From positions 1 to 24,487 of IMG/VR virus record IMGVR_UViG_3300034104_003099: 24,487 bases of DNA. One strand, given 5' to 3'. Source of the DNA: a virus. Below the pieces are notes generated by a model. That model had not been told where the DNA came from, ran no database searches, and worked only from the letters and a program-made list of their open reading frames with translations. This document shows, piece by piece, positions 1,331-24,487 of the stretch. Position numbers and translations under genes: made by a program. How positions within the stretch are numbered: the first letter of the stretch is position 1; every line of letters begins with the position of its first letter.

Positions 1331-1346
1331 TGGTATTATTATACCA
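1331..1346. promoter_or_regulatory. TGGTA-N6-TACCA dyad over the -10, second copy
   Basis: The same inverted repeat with the same centre length as at 18997-19012, placed identically over the -10. In this copy the arms extend to 6 bp (TGGTAT / ATACCA). Confidence 0.45.
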
Positions 1347-1366
1347 TAAGGGCAGAAAGTTGTCAA
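1338..1366 (-). promoter_or_regulatory. Second consensus sigma70 promoter, for the distal accessory genes
   Basis: TTGACA (1366-1361), a spacer of exactly 17 bases and TATAAT (1343-1338) with TG one base before. It shares TTGACAA, TGGTATAAT and TACCAA with the tape measure promoter although the spacers differ. It would start RNA near 1331. Confidence 0.85.
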
Positions 1367-1369
1367 TGC

Positions 1370-1406
1370 AAAAAAATACCCTGCCTATAGGTTTAGGCAG
1401 GGTATT
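1370..1406 (-). terminator. Strong terminator after the 115-residue gene
   Basis: A perfect 13-bp stem (1375-1387 with 1394-1406, core ACCCTGCCT / AGGCAGGGT) has a 6-base loop and is followed on the minus strand by seven T residues that partly lie in the stem. The plus strand has ATTATTTTT after the stem, so it may work both ways. It ends about 3 bases before the -35 of the next promoter. Confidence 0.9.
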
Positions 1407-1444
1407 ATTTTTGTAGTTTATTTAGGTTTTGCTTAATCTAACGG

Positions 1445-6100: not shown

Positions 6101-8900
6101 AGGCATTAACTGTTAAAGTTAAGCCATTTTGAGTTGCTGTACCACTGTATGTAACCCCGGTAACTAGTGCAGCTCCGCCTTTGTACAGTCTAACACTATT
6201 ACCAGTTGGTAGCGTATATCCGGTGCCGTCATTTAGTGTTGTGACTACATCGCTATCGCTGATTAGGTCAATATTGATGGCATCACTACCTTTGGCTCCC
6301 TCTTTAGATTTACTAATAGTAAGAGACTTATTAAGCTGTGTAGTGCCGATGGTAGCGCGCAGAGAAATTTCTGCAAAATCTGCTGTAATGCCACCACTAG
6401 CAATACTTAATACACCATTGGTTAGTGTAACTTTGGTTGCATCAGTGCCTGTTTGACTAGTAATACTGTATGTAACTGTTGGTGGCGTTAATATTTCTGT
6501 GCCACGCAATGTTACCAAATTGCTGGTTATAGGGAACTGGCCTGCAACAGGAACGCCAGCATTATCGCAAGTCAGTGTTTGATTTTCATTTGTAATACCG
6601 AATACAAGTGCATCATCGCCTTCTTTTACACTATATAATGTAAGCGCGTCAAATACACTAATACTGGGTATGCTACTGCTGGTAACTGTACAATTAACTA
6701 ATTTTGGGCTGCCTTCAAATGCTGAAATTTGTATGCTGGCGTCATCGTCAAACTGTGGCTGTGCTACGCCATCAATTGTCCAAGTATACTCTGTATTCGG
6801 TACATTAATTGCTGTAGCAGTAATGGTTATATTACTAGGTGCTAATATTCCAGTATTTTTGTTTTTAACAAACACTTGACTAGTGCTTGTTAAATTAACT
6901 ACTGGAGCACTATTACCTTCCAATATTTTATTTAACCTAACACTTTTAATTATTTCTGTGGTACCAATTGTAAACTTAACGTTGAAGCTGCAATAAGTAG
7001 CATTAATATCTGCTACGGTAACTATACCTGTAGTTTGATTTATTGAAATATCCGCGGGCAGTATGCCTACTAAGTCTTGTAGTGCATATTGAATAGTGCC
7101 AGGAGTACTATTATTTAATACGGTACCCCCACGCAATACTGTGGTATTGATATAAAATGGAAATTGTGTTGGTTCGGGTATACCTTCACTGTCGCAAGAA
7201 ATACCAGTAAATTCTGGAGTACAAAATGCTATTATCGCACTATCTCCGGAATCTACAAAGTATACAGTATGCTCATCAAACTGTGTGATAGATTCGCCTT
7301 GCGAGTTCAAGCCAGTTACATCAACACGAATAGTTTTAAATTCTGTATTGGTGAACTTATTAACTCTAAAGTCAGATTCAGTTTCGCCAGCTTGCACTAC
7401 GCCATCAACTCGCCATTGAAACTGTGGATTTGTGATGTTACTAGTAGCTGCTAGTAGATCAATATAGTTTGGAGCAGTGGCACTAATAGGTTCATTGGCC
7501 GGGCGTACAAAGGCCTGAGCACCCTTAATGGTAACTATTGGCGCACTGATGCCTGGAAATCCTTGCTTGCTTTTTGCAAAGTTTTGCTTTACTATCCTAG
7601 TATCGACAAATCCAGCAGTAGTTTTGTACGTAATTGTATACTCAATATACGCAGTATCCGTGGTCATTGTGCTGTGTGAGCCAAACACTATACTATTATT
7701 TTGTACAGTCCAATCATCGTCTGGAACAATACCAAAACCTTGTATAGTAGTAACACTCCAACTTCCAGCGGCCCACGTAGACGGAGCTCCGCCACTGGTA
7801 CTTACAGCTAATTTTGTGGCACCTTCGTATACCGTAATTTTAGTACCACTTTCATTGTACTCTGCTGGATCTATTTGACCTAATTCGGTAGATTGAAGCT
7901 GAACTACAGGATTGTCTACGTCTACAGTAATCTCATTGGTACCGTTGTTTAGCCTGAATACTGTGTCTAAATCGTAAATGTCTCCAACTCTAGCTTCAAT
8001 AGTTATATATCCAATATCGCTGGATATATGAAACTGTTGGTTGGTGATTTCTATAGACTTAGGATCTCCGGGAACAACTGTAAACTGTACTGTTGGTGTA
8101 GATATTAGCGTGCCGTCCCGCCTGTAGGCACGAACAGTAAAAGTAGGATTACCAACTAAATTTACTAGATTTGCAGTAGCCTTAATCTTTGCAGTATCTG
8201 CTAGTATAGCCGTATCATTTTTATATATAAATACGTCTGGGCTGGTGGTAAGTGTAATTTGAGGTGCGTCTTGTCCGATACCGTCTACAATATTCCAGTC
8301 ACGTGTAACAGTAATATTGTTATAGATAGCGTAAAAAGTTATTTTGGCATTTTTAGTGCCACTGGTCCAGCCAGTAGCACTAAATTGTCCTGTAGTTGCA
8401 TTGATAGTAGCAATTAGTCCATTTGTTGCACTACCCGATACTACACCATACTGAACACCGTTGCCAGTTACTTCGGTGTTGTATTCCCATACACGAAAAG
8501 TTCCAGTAGCAGGTGCCCAGTCTAGGTTAGAAGTGGCTGCTTCTCTTGACAAGTACACAGGATCATTTGTAAGCTCACCATATACCGTGGTAAGCTCATC
8601 GTATGTTTTAGCAGTTAACTGTGCAGAAATAGTATAGATACTAGGTTCAATTTTGCTTATAAAAGCATAACGAACATAGTATCTAGTATTCATCTGTAAA
8701 TCAGTAAGGATTATAGATGAATTAGCCGCAAAGTCAATAGCACTTGCAGGATCCGGAGTGAATCCTGCAGTTGTGCTAATCCACACCTTAACACCAGTAA
8801 GATCATCACGAACTCTTGGCTCGCTAGGATCTGTTGTGTCATAGGGTGGGGTCAACATTAGATATAGTTGCTTAATGCCACGAAATAGGGTAGCTGACAT
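3126..8900 (-). CDS. Giant central tail fibre / host-recognition protein
   Basis: The 1924-residue protein is the longest in the window. Residues 1-230 hold an FN3-like start and an Ig-like domain; to about 1320 it is a string of Ig-like or cadherin-like beta modules of about 100 residues, each closing with KSKQG- or GIGQD-like linkers, including two almost equal copies of 104 residues (about 869-1076). Residues about 1320-1450 resemble the central straight fibre part of J-type proteins (QTIGFTGLVTFTS, GGRITTGLVVADRI). Residues about 1458-1834 are a Gly/Asn/Thr-rich 60-residue repeat probably folded as a trimeric beta-helix. The C-terminus, with GAITAGKIQVNNLQ and NIIRVYDSSNTLRVRIG, is typical of lambda-like J ends. 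It follows the hub gene by a few bases with AAGGAAG. Role in adsorption is inferred. Confidence 0.8.
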   Translation of the reverse strand: MSATLFRGIKQLYLMLTPPYDTTDPSEPRVRDDLTGVKVWISTTAGFTPDPASAIDFAANSSIILTDLQMNTRYYVRYAFISKIEPSIYTISAQLTAKTYDELTTVYGELTNDPVYLSREAATSNLDWAPATGTFRVWEYNTEVTGNGVQYGVVSGSATNGLIATINATTGQFSATGWTSGTKNAKITFYAIYNNITVTRDWNIVDGIGQDAPQITLTTSPDVFIYKNDTAILADTAKIKATANLVNLVGNPTFTVRAYRRDGTLISTPTVQFTVVPGDPKSIEITNQQFHISSDIGYITIEARVGDIYDLDTVFRLNNGTNEITVDVDNPVVQLQSTELGQIDPAEYNESGTKITVYEGATKLAVSTSGGAPSTWAAGSWSVTTIQGFGIVPDDDWTVQNNSIVFGSHSTMTTDTAYIEYTITYKTTAGFVDTRIVKQNFAKSKQGFPGISAPIVTIKGAQAFVRPANEPISATAPNYIDLLAATSNITNPQFQWRVDGVVQAGETESDFRVNKFTNTEFKTIRVDVTGLNSQGESITQFDEHTVYFVDSGDSAIIAFCTPEFTGISCDSEGIPEPTQFPFYINTTVLRGGTVLNNSTPGTIQYALQDLVGILPADISINQTTGIVTVADINATYCSFNVKFTIGTTEIIKSVRLNKILEGNSAPVVNLTSTSQVFVKNKNTGILAPSNITITATAINVPNTEYTWTIDGVAQPQFDDDASIQISAFEGSPKLVNCTVTSSSIPSISVFDALTLYSVKEGDDALVFGITNENQTLTCDNAGVPVAGQFPITSNLVTLRGTEILTPPTVTYSITSQTGTDATKVTLTNGVLSIASGGITADFAEISLRATIGTTQLNKSLTISKSKEGAKGSDAINIDLISDSDVVTTLNDGTGYTLPTGNSVRLYKGGAALVTGVTYSGTATQNGLTLTVNASTGALTLSGTSWTSNQENFTITANYTGISYTVVYSIAKSKQGSDAINIDLISDSDVVTTLNDGTGYTLPTGNSVRLYKGGVVLTSGVTYSGTATQNGLTLTVNSATGALTLSGTSWVSNQENFIVTASYAGTSYTITYSIAKSRQGVKGDNAKTVDITGITNFKVNTAGTYSPTSAALTAVTQNITAPTYSWTITGATPATSTASSVTITPAANVQSITAQLTVTEPSTSQTFTKTVTLSVAYDGSAGAAAKGIDISGATNVSFKLVGGVYTPTPPVTLTATPQNLTSPTYSWTISGGSFSGSSTVTTSTASSVTVYPTSSTSVTVNLIATDSGTQYSKSVVFSVVSDGIGQDGKRTSTGYVYYYQSSATAPTGLSTTGVTYTFATGVFSGGVFAGGTWSTQAPQFVASNGNKYWAATYTVVENTAGGGTGTGSNISFGTVSQTIGFTGLVTFTSANAVTDGTNGLSFGATGQTQIDGGRITTGLVVADRIDSRGLSIKDANGNIILAAGTALDWSSISTSYPNSLNNAAIVIDAVTGALNGIGTGTGTAVRNSNISINNAGTLSGAGGGTVTIGGLGYSGDLDAQRNNRISINATNGTLDGIGTGTGTAVRNSNITVSNNGTLNNAGGGTVTIGGLGYSGDLDAQRNNRITISGGNISGIGTGDGTTVANSSITINSTNGTLDGIGTGTGTAVRNSNISINNAGTLSGAGGGTVTIGGLGYSGDLDAQRNSRISIDSTNGTLDGIGTGTGTAVRNSNISINNAGTLSGAGGGTVTIGGLGYSGDLDAQRNSRININASTGTLDGIGTGTGTAVRNTNITMSSSGTINNAGGGTVTISGLGYTGDLAANNTFVDTSGNIQGVSQNAGTAVRNSNISISSTGTLSGAGGGTVSLSGLGAGNFATLNQITQFNISTYIASAAIGAAYIGELGAANIAAGAITAGKIQVNNLQAVSATIGTLRTATSGARVEISDNIIRVYDSSNTLRVRIGVF
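3400..4530 (-). repeat. 180-bp tandem repeat array (60-residue Gly-rich beta unit) in the fibre gene
   Basis: The block ATAGTAACTGTACC recurs at about 3594, 3772, 3952, 4201 and 4381, with a diverged copy near 3427, so the period is 180 bases. The 3952-4201 gap is 249, which is one unit plus an extra 69-base partial unit. Each unit reads GIGTGTGTAVRNSNI, then a NAGTL turn, AGGGTVTIGGLGYSGDLD and AQRNNRI. About six full units and one truncated unit are present; those at the 3' end of the gene (low coordinates) are the most diverged. Confidence 0.9.
5670..6300 (-). repeat. Tandem pair of 104-codon Ig-like module copies in the fibre gene
   Basis: Two neighbouring segments about 312 bases apart (for example the GTGACTACATC blocks at 5929 and 6241) encode almost the same module, beginning DAINIDLISDSDVV and ending YSIAKSKQG or YSIAKSRQG. 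Differences are mostly at third codon positions plus a few residues (GAALVTG against GVVLTSG), so the duplication is recent but not fresh. Confidence 0.85.
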
Positions 8901-18996: not shown

Positions 18997-19012
18997 TGGT
19001 ACCATTATACCA
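18997..19012. promoter_or_regulatory. TGGTA-N6-TACCA dyad over the -10 (possible operator)
   Basis: A 5-bp inverted repeat with a 6-base centre spans the -10 and start point. The same dyad with the same spacing and same position is found at the other promoter (1331-1346). Binding by a regulator is inference; part of the similarity comes from the -10 itself. Confidence 0.45.
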
Positions 19013-19032
19013 GTATAGTGCACAATTGTCAA
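19004..19032 (-). promoter_or_regulatory. Consensus sigma70 promoter for the tape measure / tip block
   Basis: TTGACA (19032-19027), a spacer of exactly 17 bases and TATAAT (19009-19004), with TG one base before the -10 (extended -10). It lies about 20 bases after the terminator T-run and would start RNA near 18997, about 40 bases before the tape measure ATG. Confidence 0.85.
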
Positions 19033-19052
19033 ACCAAAAAATTTTATGCAAC

Positions 19053-19082
19053 AAAAAACCCGCTAGGTTTATTTAGCGGGTT
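19053..19082 (-). terminator. Terminator overlapping the end of the chaperone gene
   Basis: On the minus strand a 9-bp stem (AACCCGCTA / TAGCGGGTT, 19082-19074 with 19065-19057) with an 8-base loop is followed by TTTTTTGTTG. The 5' arm lies inside the last codons of the GT frame. It would end the head/tube/chaperone transcript just before the promoter at 19032. Confidence 0.85.
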
Positions 19083-19865: not shown

Positions 19866-19885
19866 TTTTAATTATATAATTAAAA
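19866..19885. repeat. 20-bp perfect AT palindrome in the chaperone leader
   Basis: TTTTAATTAT is followed at once by its complement, giving a perfect 20-bp palindrome that begins in the T-run of the tube terminator and ends about 12 bases before the chaperone ATG. It contains TATAAT but no -35 partner at proper spacing, so I do not call it a promoter. Confidence 0.6.
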
Positions 19886-19912
19886 AGTGGTGCCGGAGAT
19901 CAACCCGGCACC
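19882..19912 (-). terminator. Terminator after the tail tube gene
   Basis: On the minus strand a perfect 8-bp GC-rich stem (GGTGCCGG / CCGGCACC, 19912-19905 with 19896-19889) with an 8-base loop is followed by ACTTTTTAATT. This is a plausible intrinsic terminator or attenuator that would keep tube transcript above that of the chaperone genes. Confidence 0.7.
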
Positions 19913-21152: not shown

Positions 21153-21596
21153 TTAGTTATCGAGTGCATAGCGCACTTCTAAGTTAATTTCGCCAACGCC
21201 GTATGGAGCCAGCAAACCTTCGTCAGTAGTAATACTTTGAATCAAAATCTCGGTTGTTTCCAAATTATTAGCTACGTCATATTTAAGTACTCTATTAGAG
21301 TCAATGCAGTGCTCCAAGTCGTCTAGTAAAATCTCTAGCTGTTCTTGGGCACTATCCTCACTACGCACATAGACCTTTACACATACCATTAAAAAGCCCC
21401 AAGTAAATCCACTTGGTAAATACTCCCTGGTTTCGTTGGCCGGGTGCAAATACACACAAGGAAAGTCTTGTACTTCGTCCCAAAACTTTAGTTTTGCAAA
21501 ACTATTGTTGAACAAATTAGTTTGGTAAGGGCCGGTGCCGTCTATTTCCTTAAATTTTTCACTTAATGCCTTGATTATGCTGGTTCTTTTACTCAT
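21153..21596 (-). CDS. Tail terminator protein (lambda gpU type)
   Basis: This 147-residue protein fits the tail-terminator family, whose hexameric ring stops tube growth and forms the tail side of the head-tail joint. Features seen are an N-terminal helix (SIIKALSEKFKEIDG), a central WDEVQDFPCVYLHPANETREY segment rich in strands, a FLMVCVKVYVRSED strand followed by a long acidic helix (EQLEILLDDLEHCID), and a C-terminal pair of strands with TTDEGLLAPYGVGEINLEVRY. The place just before the tube gene agrees. Start ATG overlaps the stop of the neck gene (ATGA). Confidence 0.7.
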   Translation of the reverse strand: MSKRTSIIKALSEKFKEIDGTGPYQTNLFNNSFAKLKFWDEVQDFPCVYLHPANETREYLPSGFTWGFLMVCVKVYVRSEDSAQEQLEILLDDLEHCIDSNRVLKYDVANNLETTEILIQSITTDEGLLAPYGVGEINLEVRYALDN

Positions 21597-23248
21597 AAGG
21601 AAACGGCTCTCAGTTTATTAGCTACCAACTCTTGCATAACCTGTCTAATAGATTTGCTTATCAGCAGCTTAGGGTCTCTGGATCTTGGGAGCTCTTGCCT
21701 ACCACCAGTGCTAAATGTAGCGTAGGGGTTCTTCATGTAGCTGTAAAAGGCCGTTATCAATCCATCTCGGGATTGTACCATTCTGTCTACTTTTACACTT
21801 TCAGCAAATCTGCCACTGCGTAAGTTTAGGATATCTCTACGCTCGCCACGACCCATGTTTTGCTTTATTTGCTCAACCAGTCGCCTATCAAGAATAGTTT
21901 GCAGCGATAACAAGTTTGCTTGTGGACTAACAGTTTTTGTTTTAACTGTTACTTTTTTAGTTAGTGCTGCCTTTTTAGATTTTGCTACTAATTTCTTACT
22001 AACATTAGTATTAAAAACAGCAGGTATCTCTAGCTGAGACTTTTTAGAAGTTTTGTTAGACTTTTGAAGTTTTGCAGTTTTCTTTCCGGTTAAGGAATTG
22101 TAAACTAACGTCTCTATGTAGTCTACTAAAGAAGGACTTGCGGAGATCGTCTCCGGTTCAATAATTCCGCCTACTAACTTGCTTCTGATCTGATCTTCTA
22201 GAGCAGGTATGAATTCGCCTTCTATAACTTGGCGTAAGCGCTTTTGCTCTTCAATATTTAAGTAAGTAGTATTGAACTTTGCAGGTTGGCTAATCACAAA
22301 GGCAAACTGCATGTCTAGCAGACGGCCGCCTACCTCACTATAGTTTTGATTAAAAGTTATTGAGTAATTATTCTCGTAGTATAACTTACCCAACTCACGA
22401 TCTATTTCAAAACTTTTAGGGCTGCCGCTTAATCTAAACTGCAACTCTTGGGCACTTGGCATATTTACGCCAATAATCTGCCCTGAGCTAGTAACTGCCG
22501 ACGTGTGTCCAGCGTTTACCAAGTTACCTATCTTAAAACCAGTATTGTTTTTTGTAACAACTATACTGTACTTGCTTTCCAGCAAATCTTCTACTGGCTT
22601 TAGTAGGGTTTCATTAATTTTTCTGACTACACCATCAAAGGTAGGGCCAATAACTAATAGTTGATTGCCCTGTAAAGCTACATACTGCTGCGCGTCTGTA
22701 GCTATAAATATGCCTTCTTTGGCCATCGCTGCACGAAGATCGAATCCGTACTTAATAGCAGCGTTTCTATACTTTGCATACGACTGGTTCTGTTTACTGA
22801 GCTTTTCAATAGTTTTATTGTAAAGCTTTTCAACCGTGTTGTACACGTCGCCAAATTTCTTTTTAGGAAACTTTCCTAATTCAGCTTTGCCGGTTTTAAT
22901 CAAGTCGTTTAATAACGCTTGATAAACCTTGGATTCTTGGCTTCCAATGTCACTAACACTAAAATCTGCTTCGCCTGGAGCAGCTGGTCCAGTTTCTGTA
23001 AACCGTTGTGATATAAACCGTTTAGGGTCTGATACCAGACCGTTTACGATCTCTTTAGCAATTAAGTCTAAATCAACGATATAGAATACTGGTAAATTAG
23101 CAGTAATAATATCACGGAAACGTGCGTCATTTAACTTAGCAATTTCGAAGTCTCGGTAAATTGCCGAACGTTGCACTTTAGTTCTTGCTCCAGCAAAAGC
23201 ACTACCACTAACAATGTCTAGTAATCTACTGAAGTGTGTTAAACGCAT
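21593..23248 (-). CDS. Large neck / tail-completion protein with HK97 gp10-like C-terminus
   Basis: This 551-residue protein lies between the connector and the tail terminator, where siphoviruses usually carry a small head-closure protein and a tail-completion protein (HK97 gp10 or lambda Z type). The last 100 residues or so carry the pattern LRSGRFAESV, a strand pair with FYSYMKNPYATF, then a PRSRDP loop and a C-terminal helix, which resembles the gp10-like family. The first 380 residues are not recognised: a helical N-terminus, then mixed segments with NAGHTSAV and INLxYxE-like strands. Between about residues 390 and 445 lies a very Lys- and Thr-rich low-complexity linker. The gene starts in a TAATG overlap with the connector and ends in an ATGA overlap with the terminator gene. 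A role in head-tail joining is inferred from place and C-terminus. Confidence 0.55.
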   Translation of the reverse strand: MRLTHFSRLLDIVSGSAFAGARTKVQRSAIYRDFEIAKLNDARFRDIITANLPVFYIVDLDLIAKEIVNGLVSDPKRFISQRFTETGPAAPGEADFSVSDIGSQESKVYQALLNDLIKTGKAELGKFPKKKFGDVYNTVEKLYNKTIEKLSKQNQSYAKYRNAAIKYGFDLRAAMAKEGIFIATDAQQYVALQGNQLLVIGPTFDGVVRKINETLLKPVEDLLESKYSIVVTKNNTGFKIGNLVNAGHTSAVTSSGQIIGVNMPSAQELQFRLSGSPKSFEIDRELGKLYYENNYSITFNQNYSEVGGRLLDMQFAFVISQPAKFNTTYLNIEEQKRLRQVIEGEFIPALEDQIRSKLVGGIIEPETISASPSLVDYIETLVYNSLTGKKTAKLQKSNKTSKKSQLEIPAVFNTNVSKKLVAKSKKAALTKKVTVKTKTVSPQANLLSLQTILDRRLVEQIKQNMGRGERRDILNLRSGRFAESVKVDRMVQSRDGLITAFYSYMKNPYATFSTGGRQELPRSRDPKLLISKSIRQVMQELVANKLRAVSL

Positions 23249-23811
23249 TATGTATAATCCGCAGTGTATAGATCCAGTACACGCTTAATGTGCGCTGGCA
23301 AACTAGTAGTGCTTACATATTCAATCTGCACGCTGTTAGTACCTGGTGCTTTTGTGCTGTGAATAGCACCATCATTTTTGCGATAGTAAGTAACTAGGTC
23401 TAGCACAGCTAGCTTCAAGTCTGCGGGTACGACTTCGTAACCAGCAAAATAAGTTACTTTGTATCCGTTGAGATGTTCTTTGAATACTGGGTATCCAGTG
23501 GAGAAGATATAGTCTCCATTTTGAATCCAGTCTGTAAACTTCACTAACTTTGTGTAAGTTTTACCGTAGTCACTACTAAACTCAACGCTGATAACTTGGG
23601 TAACAGGTGATTCTTTTAAGATTAGCTTATCGTAGCCACCATTCATTACTTCTATCTTAGCTTCGTCAACAAAGTCGATAAAGCTACGACGGCAGTAAGT
23701 TTTTACCAGCTCGCTAACTTTTGGTATTAAGAAATCAATTTCGGCATCTTGATTAGTACTGTTGATGCCAGCGTATGTCTTATACTCTTGTTTTGTAATT
23801 AAATCTGCCAT
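23248..23811 (-). CDS. Head-tail connector (gp6-like adaptor)
   Basis: The product of 187 residues matches the gp6-like connector/adaptor family that forms a ring under the portal and prepares it for tail joining. The pattern visible is an N-terminal LITKQEYKTYAGI helix, a helix ending in TYCRRSF, then a LILKESPVTQVISVEF strand pair, a DYIFSTGYPVF loop, VTYFAGYEVVPADLKLAVLDLVTYYRK, and a short C-terminal helix. Length and order of elements fit the family. It follows the capsid gene after the hairpin region, and its stop overlaps the next start as TAATG, so it should be translationally coupled to the 551-residue neck gene. The function is known for the family; here it is assigned by pattern and position. 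Confidence 0.8.
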   Translation of the reverse strand: MADLITKQEYKTYAGINSTNQDAEIDFLIPKVSELVKTYCRRSFIDFVDEAKIEVMNGGYDKLILKESPVTQVISVEFSSDYGKTYTKLVKFTDWIQNGDYIFSTGYPVFKEHLNGYKVTYFAGYEVVPADLKLAVLDLVTYYRKNDGAIHSTKAPGTNSVQIEYVSTTSLPAHIKRVLDLYTADYT

Positions 23812-23819
23812 CAACAAGT

Positions 23820-23825
23820 CCTCCT
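23820..23825 (-). promoter_or_regulatory. Ribosome-binding site AGGAGG that decides the connector start
   Basis: AGGAGG lies 8 bases before the ATG at 23811. The two in-frame TTG codons upstream (23817 and 23814) would sit only 2 to 5 bases from it, so ATG 23811 is the likely start. Confidence 0.8.
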
Positions 23826-23866
23826 GTCTTTTAATTGGACTCTGTAAAATCCAATTAAAAGACAGG
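23823..23866 (-). promoter_or_regulatory. Hairpin 2: 17-bp stem that competes with hairpin 1 and reaches the connector ribosome-binding site
   Basis: A perfect 17-bp inverted repeat (CCTGTCTTTTAATTGGA and its complement, 23823-23839 with 23850-23866) surrounds a 10-base loop. Its 3' arm on the transcript covers the first three bases of the AGGAGG at 23825-23820. Full pairing uses the CCTGTC that hairpin 1 needs, so the full stem would break the terminator and partly hide the ribosome-binding site. If hairpin 1 forms, an 11-bp core of hairpin 2 remains and the site is free. That it acts as a switch is inference; it could instead be an RNase III processing site or transcript stabiliser. Confidence 0.65.
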
Positions 23867-23884
23867 GATTTTTCAATCCCTGTC
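23857..23884 (-). terminator. Hairpin 1 after the capsid gene: terminator or attenuator
   Basis: On the minus strand a perfect 10-bp stem (GACAGGGATT / AATCCCTGTC, 23884-23875 with 23870-23861) closes a GAAA tetraloop and is followed directly by TTTTAATT. This is the form of an intrinsic terminator placed just after the capsid gene stop. A partial terminator here would raise capsid transcript over the connector. Its 3' arm shares six bases (23861-23866) with the 5' arm of hairpin 2, so both full stems cannot form at the same time. Confidence 0.75.
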
Positions 23885-23894
23885 CCACCTAAAA

Positions 23895-24487
23895 TTAGGC
23901 TACGTAACGAACTGCGCTTACGCCAGCACCGTTGTTTGTTGTAACTTGTGTTAGACCTGTACGCAGGCTAGCAACCATTACACGACGCTGTGTCTCAACC
24001 AGGTCGTCTGTGTCAACACGCAGACCACGCTGATTACCAACCAGGAAGTTCATTGGAGCGTATGCAATAGCAGCAACTTCACCGGCTGCCTTAGCATTGA
24101 ACTCAGCACTGACCAGCACTGGTGTGTTAGCGATGCTACCAATTTGACCAGTTAACAGAGTAGCTTGGCTACCAATCTTGTCAACTGTTTGGAATTGTGC
24201 ATCGTCCAGCAGATCATAGTAGCACTCTGTGCTTACAACGTAGATCATTTCGGCTGGATCTAGGCCCCATGCACCTAGGTCACGACGGGCTAGACGCAGC
24301 TTCTCAACTGTCATCTTGTCACCGTTGCTGATATCTAGAGTTACGGCGCTTGCAGCGTCGTAAGCGGCCAGACCCTTAACAGGATCAGCACCTGCACCAG
24401 CACCCAGAGAGAATGCCTTGTCAACTGCACGAGCAACACGGCGAACCATGGCGTCACGTACAACTGGCATAATTGCTAGCAGAGCGT
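23895..24487 (-). CDS. Major capsid protein, HK97 fold (C-terminal part, cut by window edge)
   Basis: The protein forms the icosahedral head shell. The reading frame is open to the window edge, so only about the last 196 residues are seen and the start lies outside; the first internal ATG, at 24470, should not be taken as the start. The visible part reads like the second half of an HK97-type capsid protein: a long helix with many Arg residues, a segment around DLGAWGLDPAEMIYVVS, a central TPVLVSAEF strand, then the A-domain ending with a conserved stretch around GNQRGLRVDTDD and RRVMVASLRTGL. The stop is followed within about 10 bases by a strong hairpin, as expected for a transcript made in excess. 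The identification is by family pattern and position (directly before a gp6-like connector). No delta-domain or protease can be judged because the 5' end is missing. Confidence 0.88.
   Translation of the reverse strand, partial: ALLAIMPVVRDAMVRRVARAVDKAFSLGAGAGADPVKGLAAYDAASAVTLDISNGDKMTVEKLRLARRDLGAWGLDPAEMIYVVSTECYYDLLDDAQFQTVDKIGSQATLLTGQIGSIANTPVLVSAEFNAKAAGEVAAIAYAPMNFLVGNQRGLRVDTDDLVETQRRVMVASLRTGLTQVTTNNGAGVSAVRYVA

Follow-up and report, generated by a model that had tools for sequence, protein, structure and literature searches.

We identified a conserved three-arm RNA element at the junction between the major capsid and head-tail adaptor genes of uncultivated T5-like phages, in which the 3′ arm of a terminator-like hairpin is re-used by a second, longer hairpin that adjoins the start site of the next gene. 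That this conserved three-arm element is real is close to certain. In the window, meaning the whole 24,487-nt stretch of viral DNA analysed here, it lies on the minus strand as a compact and apparently self-contained unit of about 65 nt. Arm 1 (GACAGGGATT, 23875-23884) is the 5′ arm of the terminator hairpin and pairs across a GAAA loop (23874-23871) with AATCCCTGTC (23870-23861), giving a 10-bp stem 1 (23884-23861) that starts ten bases past the capsid stop codon; TTTTAATT follows right after the stem, and the U-tract is TTTT (23860-23857) with AATT next. Arm 2 (23850-23870), defined by its sequence and by the double pairing of its shared columns, comprises the terminator 3′ arm, the U-tract and the 5′ side of stem 2 (CCTGTCTTTTAATTGGA, 23866-23850). 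Past a loop at 23849-23840 stands arm 3 (TCCAATTAAAAGACAGG, 23823-23839), the 3′ arm of stem 2, which is supported by sequence, folding and compensatory changes and terminates within the adaptor gene's Shine-Dalgarno motif AGGAGG (23820-23825). Stem 2 is a perfect 17-bp helix (23866-23823), or 20 bp counting a G-U closure in the fold, and is the longest perfect inverted repeat that a repeat search reported for the whole window; its 3′ end extends over the first three bases of AGGAGG and stops 11 nt upstream of the adaptor ATG. The six bases CCTGTC (23866-23861) are common to both stems.

A first-pass annotation, made from the letters alone, had described this GAAA-loop stem with its T-run, the perfect 17-bp stem and their six-base overlap; all three are present base for base, one end of the element being terminator-like and the other touching the adaptor ribosome site. 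Conservation among relatives, set out below, much strengthens that observation.

The flanking genes place the element in a phage structural module. Upstream is the 3′ part of the major capsid gene (23895-24487, minus strand; phrog_267, E = 6.6e-13), which runs off the window and ends in TAA at 23897-23895. Downstream is the head-tail adaptor, or head completion, gene (23248-23811, minus strand; phrog_442, E = 2.6e-26; PF24163, E = 1.5e-16), which starts at ATG 23811-23809; the TTG at 23817 was a mechanical call only and was rejected as the start. Capsid, head completion, tail completion and tail terminator genes of T5 type stand in order by phrog and Pfam assignment (PF24163, PF25747, PF23818), Vibrio phage D254 has the identical structural gene order, and further window genes match T5-type neck and tail proteins, for example T5_p143. 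Among named phages, those with a similar capsid are T5-like, their identity reaching about 36% at most, and the element belongs to a clade of uncultivated T5-like phages. A tblastn search with the capsid against bacterial genome contigs, seeking a host, found no relative. Several features of these genes were recorded alongside. A 551-aa neck gene (21593-23248, minus strand) matches the T5 tail completion protein p143 over residues of about 432-542 only, its N-terminal 430 residues being without a family match. A small hairpin, GCCTA/TAGGT, surrounds the capsid stop codon (23888-23901, minus strand); it has a GCTTAA/TTAAGC version in a few close relatives and is absent from most. One 41-kb record named as a Corynebacterium phage (PQ773600.1, hit H66) carries a capsid that scores like those of T5-like enterobacterial phages and is possibly mislabelled or mixed.

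Both hairpins are far more stable than their composition predicts. Relative to dinucleotide shuffles, the 101-nt region folds with z = -6.0; taken alone, stem 1 (23890-23857) reaches -18.3 kcal/mol (z = -4.8) and stem 2 reaches -26.8 kcal/mol (z = -9.4), neither being equalled by any shuffle. Relatives' loci were gathered in four capsid and adaptor searches of IMG/VR. The first two returned the layout in 84/84 sequences, window included, representing 56 distinct elements; a third, anchored on the capsid, found both hairpins in 78/78 loci and added 22 distinct elements, so that the architecture is present in all 78 distinct elements measured across the three. In the fourth search, read by eye and reaching capsids down to 56% identity with its query, the layout appears in 27 of the 28 loci listed apart from the query's own, and the one locus lacking the full element (L229) is cut by its contig end. 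One locus (L226) retains stem 2 around a much longer loop, and another (L034) has a bulged stem 1, for which automated stem detection underestimates the overlap. We excluded L137 as an apparent fold-back assembly artefact: its first contig bases are the exact reverse complement of the next stretch, centred on stem 2.

Covariation was assessed on 34 representatives over the 22 pairs of the combined structure. All 22 change on both sides, a result that none of 500 shuffles equalled, and 93.6% of pairing cells are complementary, compared with 68.9% in shuffles and 36-55% when the partner strand is slid. Stem 2 shows compensatory changes in 16/16 consensus pairs. The combined structure is almost matched in score by the alternative that pairs the full terminator stem. 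Stem-1 pair counts (80-82%) are underestimates, as the 5′ arm of this stem is out of place in some rows of the MAFFT alignment (A1). Wobble pairs are unevenly distributed: the overlap holds 19/351 between arms 1 and 2 versus 2/351 between arms 2 and 3, and among 41 non-redundant elements G-U pairs occupy 9/492 positions in the basal 12 bp of stem 2 versus 57/258 in its apical part, suggesting that the base of stem 2 is the more constrained part.

Direct evidence comes from the shared strand. For any one of the four columns of the overlap, the arm-2 base is complementary to both its arm-1 and its arm-3 counterpart in 92-94 of 95 loci, and all four columns pair doubly in 90/95. Mapped onto a maximum-likelihood tree of the capsid, the 4-mer shows at least 23 changes in arm 2, 26 in arm 1 and 24 in arm 3; column 4 alone switched 14 times between A-U-A and G-C-G, all three arms together. 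These counts use one element alignment, so neighbouring columns are not independent events. Whole arms have also been replaced in concert, as in GACAGG/CCTGTC/GACAGG, AACAAG/CTTGTT/AACAAG and AAAACC/GGTTTT/AAAACC, and, by eye, GCATGG/CCATGC/GCATGG in one locus of the set (L255) and nearly so in another (L235). Given this double pairing and the repeated joint changes of the arms, selection very probably maintains arm 2's capacity to pair with arm 1 or with arm 3, and the competing arms covary in both pairings, as in ribosome-sensing attenuators. The first-pass annotation had staked its proposal on conservation of the overlap among relatives, and the overlap is both conserved and covarying.

The two pairings are closely balanced because arms 1 and 3 have the same bases: the median energy difference is 0.2 kcal/mol, and in 89% of the 56 distinct elements it stays within 2 kcal/mol. 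Only 4-8 bp are exchanged at the junction. The two stems had been called mutually exclusive, which is accurate for the shared bases and goes no further: the minimum-energy fold of the region holds both hairpins together, and the remainder of each coexists with the other. To follow the order of folding we ran equilibrium calculations on the growing RNA of the window. Stem 1 has already formed ahead of the appearance of arm 3, and on the finished free RNA the shared bases divide about 65:35 between arms 1 and 3. Masking 12-15 nt past the stop codon raises the pairing of arm 2 with arm 3 from 35% to 61-93%, the highest value corresponding to a ribosome at the stop codon that covers 15 nt downstream. 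Once arm 3 is made, the U-tract pairs with it at a probability of 0.83-1.0 in all window calculations. The free-energy sums behind these figures ignore coaxial stacking, kinetics and ribosome helicase action. Arm 3 (23839-23823) lies downstream of the U-tract and is still unmade when the polymerase decides, so the long stem cannot break the terminator in cis, and the earlier claim that it does so fails on the same transcript.

At the capsid end, the GC-rich hairpin expected of an intrinsic (Rho-independent) terminator is conserved in all elements, and a T4 run or longer follows stem 1 in 63/77 distinct elements. Stem 1 was not among the hits of a consensus terminator scan of the window, probably owing to G-U pairing that extends into the short T4 tract, so that too few T residues remain; judged from its sequence, it looks like a weak terminator. 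Two lineages (L109, and L127 with L128 and L136) have no T-tract after stem 1 yet keep stem 2 and the overlap, and termination is therefore not the sole selected role. We considered whether the terminator might face the opposite strand and rejected this, there being by eye no T-run directly past stem 2 on the plus strand. Stem 1 typically begins 8-9 nt (median) past the capsid stop codon, and in 46 of 56 elements the gap does not exceed 17 nt. In an E. coli tR2 reporter, a terminator a few base pairs past the stop codon was almost fully repressed by the ribosome and regained full efficiency beyond about 30 bp from the stop (PMC4824070). The remaining 10/56 elements have a gap of more than 17 nt, across which a ribosome at the stop codon would scarcely cover arm 1, and a ribosome-sensing form would not be universal in the clade.

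Other terminator-like hairpins occur in the window. One follows the major tail gene (19866-19912, minus strand), with the pair TTTTAATTAT/ATAATTAAAA and a Shine-Dalgarno motif directly after it; it was rejected as a second copy of the element, since the terminator is conserved in relatives and a second hairpin is not, and the covariance model described below has no match there. Separately, at two sites (19004-19082 and about 1337-1411, minus strand) a strong hairpin terminator is followed immediately by a consensus sigma70 promoter: TTGACA-17-TATAAT with TG ahead of the -10 at 19032-19004, and a similar promoter after the terminator at 1411-1370.

At the adaptor end, the gap between stem 2 and the start codon measures 5-17 nt (median 12) in 76 of 78 distinct elements, which would put the end of stem 2 inside a typical 30S footprint in nearly all members. 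The best Shine-Dalgarno-like motif begins outside stem 2 in 42/56 distinct elements and within it only in the window's subfamily and a few others. The proposal that the long stem covers half of AGGAGG thus holds in the window and mostly for its subfamily only, and we rejected sequestration of the motif as a general function. In terms of computed accessibility, clearing positions -16 to +3 costs a median of 1.6 kcal/mol with arm 1 and 9.9 without it, and masking 12-15 nt past the stop codon raises the start-site opening cost from 2.0 to 4.7-6.9 (56 elements). In these calculations arm 1 acts as the part that would free the next start site.

This computed effect of arm 1 is the basis for the explanation we favour, tentatively and at somewhat under even confidence, in which a leaky, ribosome-sensitive terminator is combined with a gate that works by strand exchange at the adaptor start site. 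Arms 1 and 2 would form the intrinsic-terminator hairpin beside the capsid stop codon, halting part of the polymerases that leave the capsid gene, and fewer of them when a ribosome follows close behind. Arms 2 and 3 would form the second hairpin, of about 18 bp, which incorporates the U-tract together with the terminator stem's base and adjoins the adaptor ribosome site. On readthrough transcripts, arms 1 and 3 would contend for arm 2 by branch migration: with a capsid ribosome on arm 1, or with arm 1 missing, arm 3 would keep arm 2 and the adaptor start would stay closed, whereas a free arm 1 would retake arm 2 and let a 30S subunit bind at small cost. Partial termination and the gate combined would hold adaptor output well under capsid output. 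Comparison and computation show the three arms, their three-way covariation, the near-equal energies, the single genomic position and the calculated effect of arm 1 on opening cost. Against a gate, the close spacing at both ends could be mere compactness of phage genomes, and an 18-bp stem exceeds the length that a start-site gate needs.

That length is best accounted for by RNA processing, an unlikely explanation overall and still the most substantial rival. Here stem 2 would be a double-stranded site for RNase III or a like enzyme, made on readthrough transcripts only, and the cut would part the capsid mRNA from the adaptor mRNA; with arm 3 lost, arm 2 would return to arm 1 and leave the capsid mRNA a hairpin-protected 3′ end like that of the terminated mRNA, which would account for the re-use of the arm through the overlap. 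Although their sequences diverge widely, most of the 41 non-redundant elements keep a stem 2 of 16-20 bp, with hardly any G-U pairs in its basal 12 bp. The stem 2 duplex of 15-23 bp (mode 18) exceeds the 12-bp stem with tetraloop on which E. coli RNase III can make a single-strand cut in vitro (PMC8708148), whereas the minimum target in another study is 22 nt of duplex (PMC5371410). In that second study, an E. coli pflB-pflA transcript reading past a strong terminator is cut by RNase III, and the authors suggest RNA separation (PMC5371410). RNase III sites are without a strong consensus, so sequence cannot test this explanation; a search of 14 phage records found no RNase III gene, and a host enzyme would therefore be needed. 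As the mechanism we favour the gate at the adaptor start site over processing.

An improbable alternative would have stem 2 only hide the U-rich tail of readthrough RNA from ribonucleases, Hfq or Rho, while providing a clean upstream flank for the start site. The near-complete pairing of the U-tract with arm 3 fits such a shield, which in turn has no need for arm 3 to match the G-C arm of the terminator, nor for 18 bp; its pure form is made less likely by the T-tract-less lineages that keep stem 2 and the overlap and by the tail-gene terminator of the same phages, which has no conserved second hairpin. The same tail-gene terminator speaks against a role at the DNA level with none for the RNA, as a cruciform or as a repeat kept perfect by template switching, which can turn imperfect palindromes perfect. 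A DNA palindrome would hardly explain the same position across the loci examined, one strong match per genome and a strand-specific layout with the terminator first and the Shine-Dalgarno motif last, and we consider it the least credible of the explanations. Very improbable, too, is the trade-off as the first-pass annotation worded it, with a long stem that ends termination and hides AGGAGG and a short stem that terminates and leaves AGGAGG open. The near-equal energies and the half-covered AGGAGG of the window agree with it; transcription of arm 3 later than the termination decision, and the position of the motif outside stem 2 in most distinct elements, do not. That interpretation is partly supported: competing hairpins with a conserved overlap stand, and a wider form survives in which stem 2 ends close to the start codon in nearly all members and arm 1 sets the computed cost of opening that site; terminator breaking on the same transcript, general covering of AGGAGG and full exclusivity are not supported.

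Across 14 records, the longest of 112 kb, a covariance model of the element matched a single time per record, at the capsid-adaptor junction, with a weaker mirror match on the other strand in most of them and remaining matches at E >= 0.01. Strong matches being restricted to this junction and its opposite-strand mirror, we rejected occurrence at other junctions. Weak matches to the stem 2 part of the model (E of about 0.01-0.07, both strands) were noted at 6864-6894 of the window and at 65569-65645 of a second record (G011), both being other palindromic hairpins. Rfam has no family for the element: it gave no match at or above gathering score in the window, and at the element its matches were sub-threshold only. 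In nine named T5-like phages the model had no match near the capsid gene, where a plain terminator-like hairpin stands instead. T5 and other Demerecviridae (AKFV33, Sugarland, PM135) carry a GC-rich hairpin and T-run shortly past the capsid stop at the same junction, annotated as a terminator in AKFV33 and Sugarland; unlike the window's clade, the named T5-like phages have no second hairpin that re-uses the terminator arm. The literature searched, largely outside subscription papers, yielded no account of a capsid-connector junction at which a hairpin past a terminator re-uses the terminator's 3′ arm.

Parallels exist with several known systems. In lambda int retroregulation (sib / tI) a structure likewise exists only on transcripts that pass a terminator, and it lies downstream of the gene affected. 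Here cleavage is putative, any effect would fall on the downstream neighbour as well as on the upstream one, and three-arm identity is not described for sib, whose control of int is cited in PMC5300877. The pflB-pflA transcript shares a double-stranded site past a strong terminator that may separate two RNAs, with no described overlap of the cut helix with a terminator arm; cutting of the window element is putative (PMC5371410). Ribosome-mediated attenuators and strand-exchange riboswitches (trp and erm type; yxjA, ZTP) share competing arms and a strand swapped between helices, and a ribosome near arm 1 is a possible sensor in the window element. In contrast to those systems, whose competitor arm is transcribed ahead of the terminator decision, the order here is reversed, terminator first and competitor after, and sensing would take place at the stop codon of the structural gene itself, with no leader peptide or ligand. 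The tR2 reporter construct likewise has a terminator within about 10 nt of a stop codon, but no second hairpin (PMC4824070).

Promoters and leaky terminators are the usual explanation for how a single operon yields hundreds of capsid proteins to a few connectors. Within this clade, a terminator arm re-used by a hairpin at the next start site has been retained under strong three-way covariation, and the element probably helps to make the adaptor much scarcer than the capsid protein. A putative fixed-ratio effect, of the kind first suggested from the window alone, is possible. Less probably, the element would be a translation-sensing strand-exchange switch, the capsid gene's terminating ribosome setting readthrough and, in the opposite sense, adaptor opening, which would keep the capsid-to-connector ratio constant without a protein regulator. 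Should the proposed mechanism prove right, the element would be a natural, protein-free device for setting a ratio, and a useful part.
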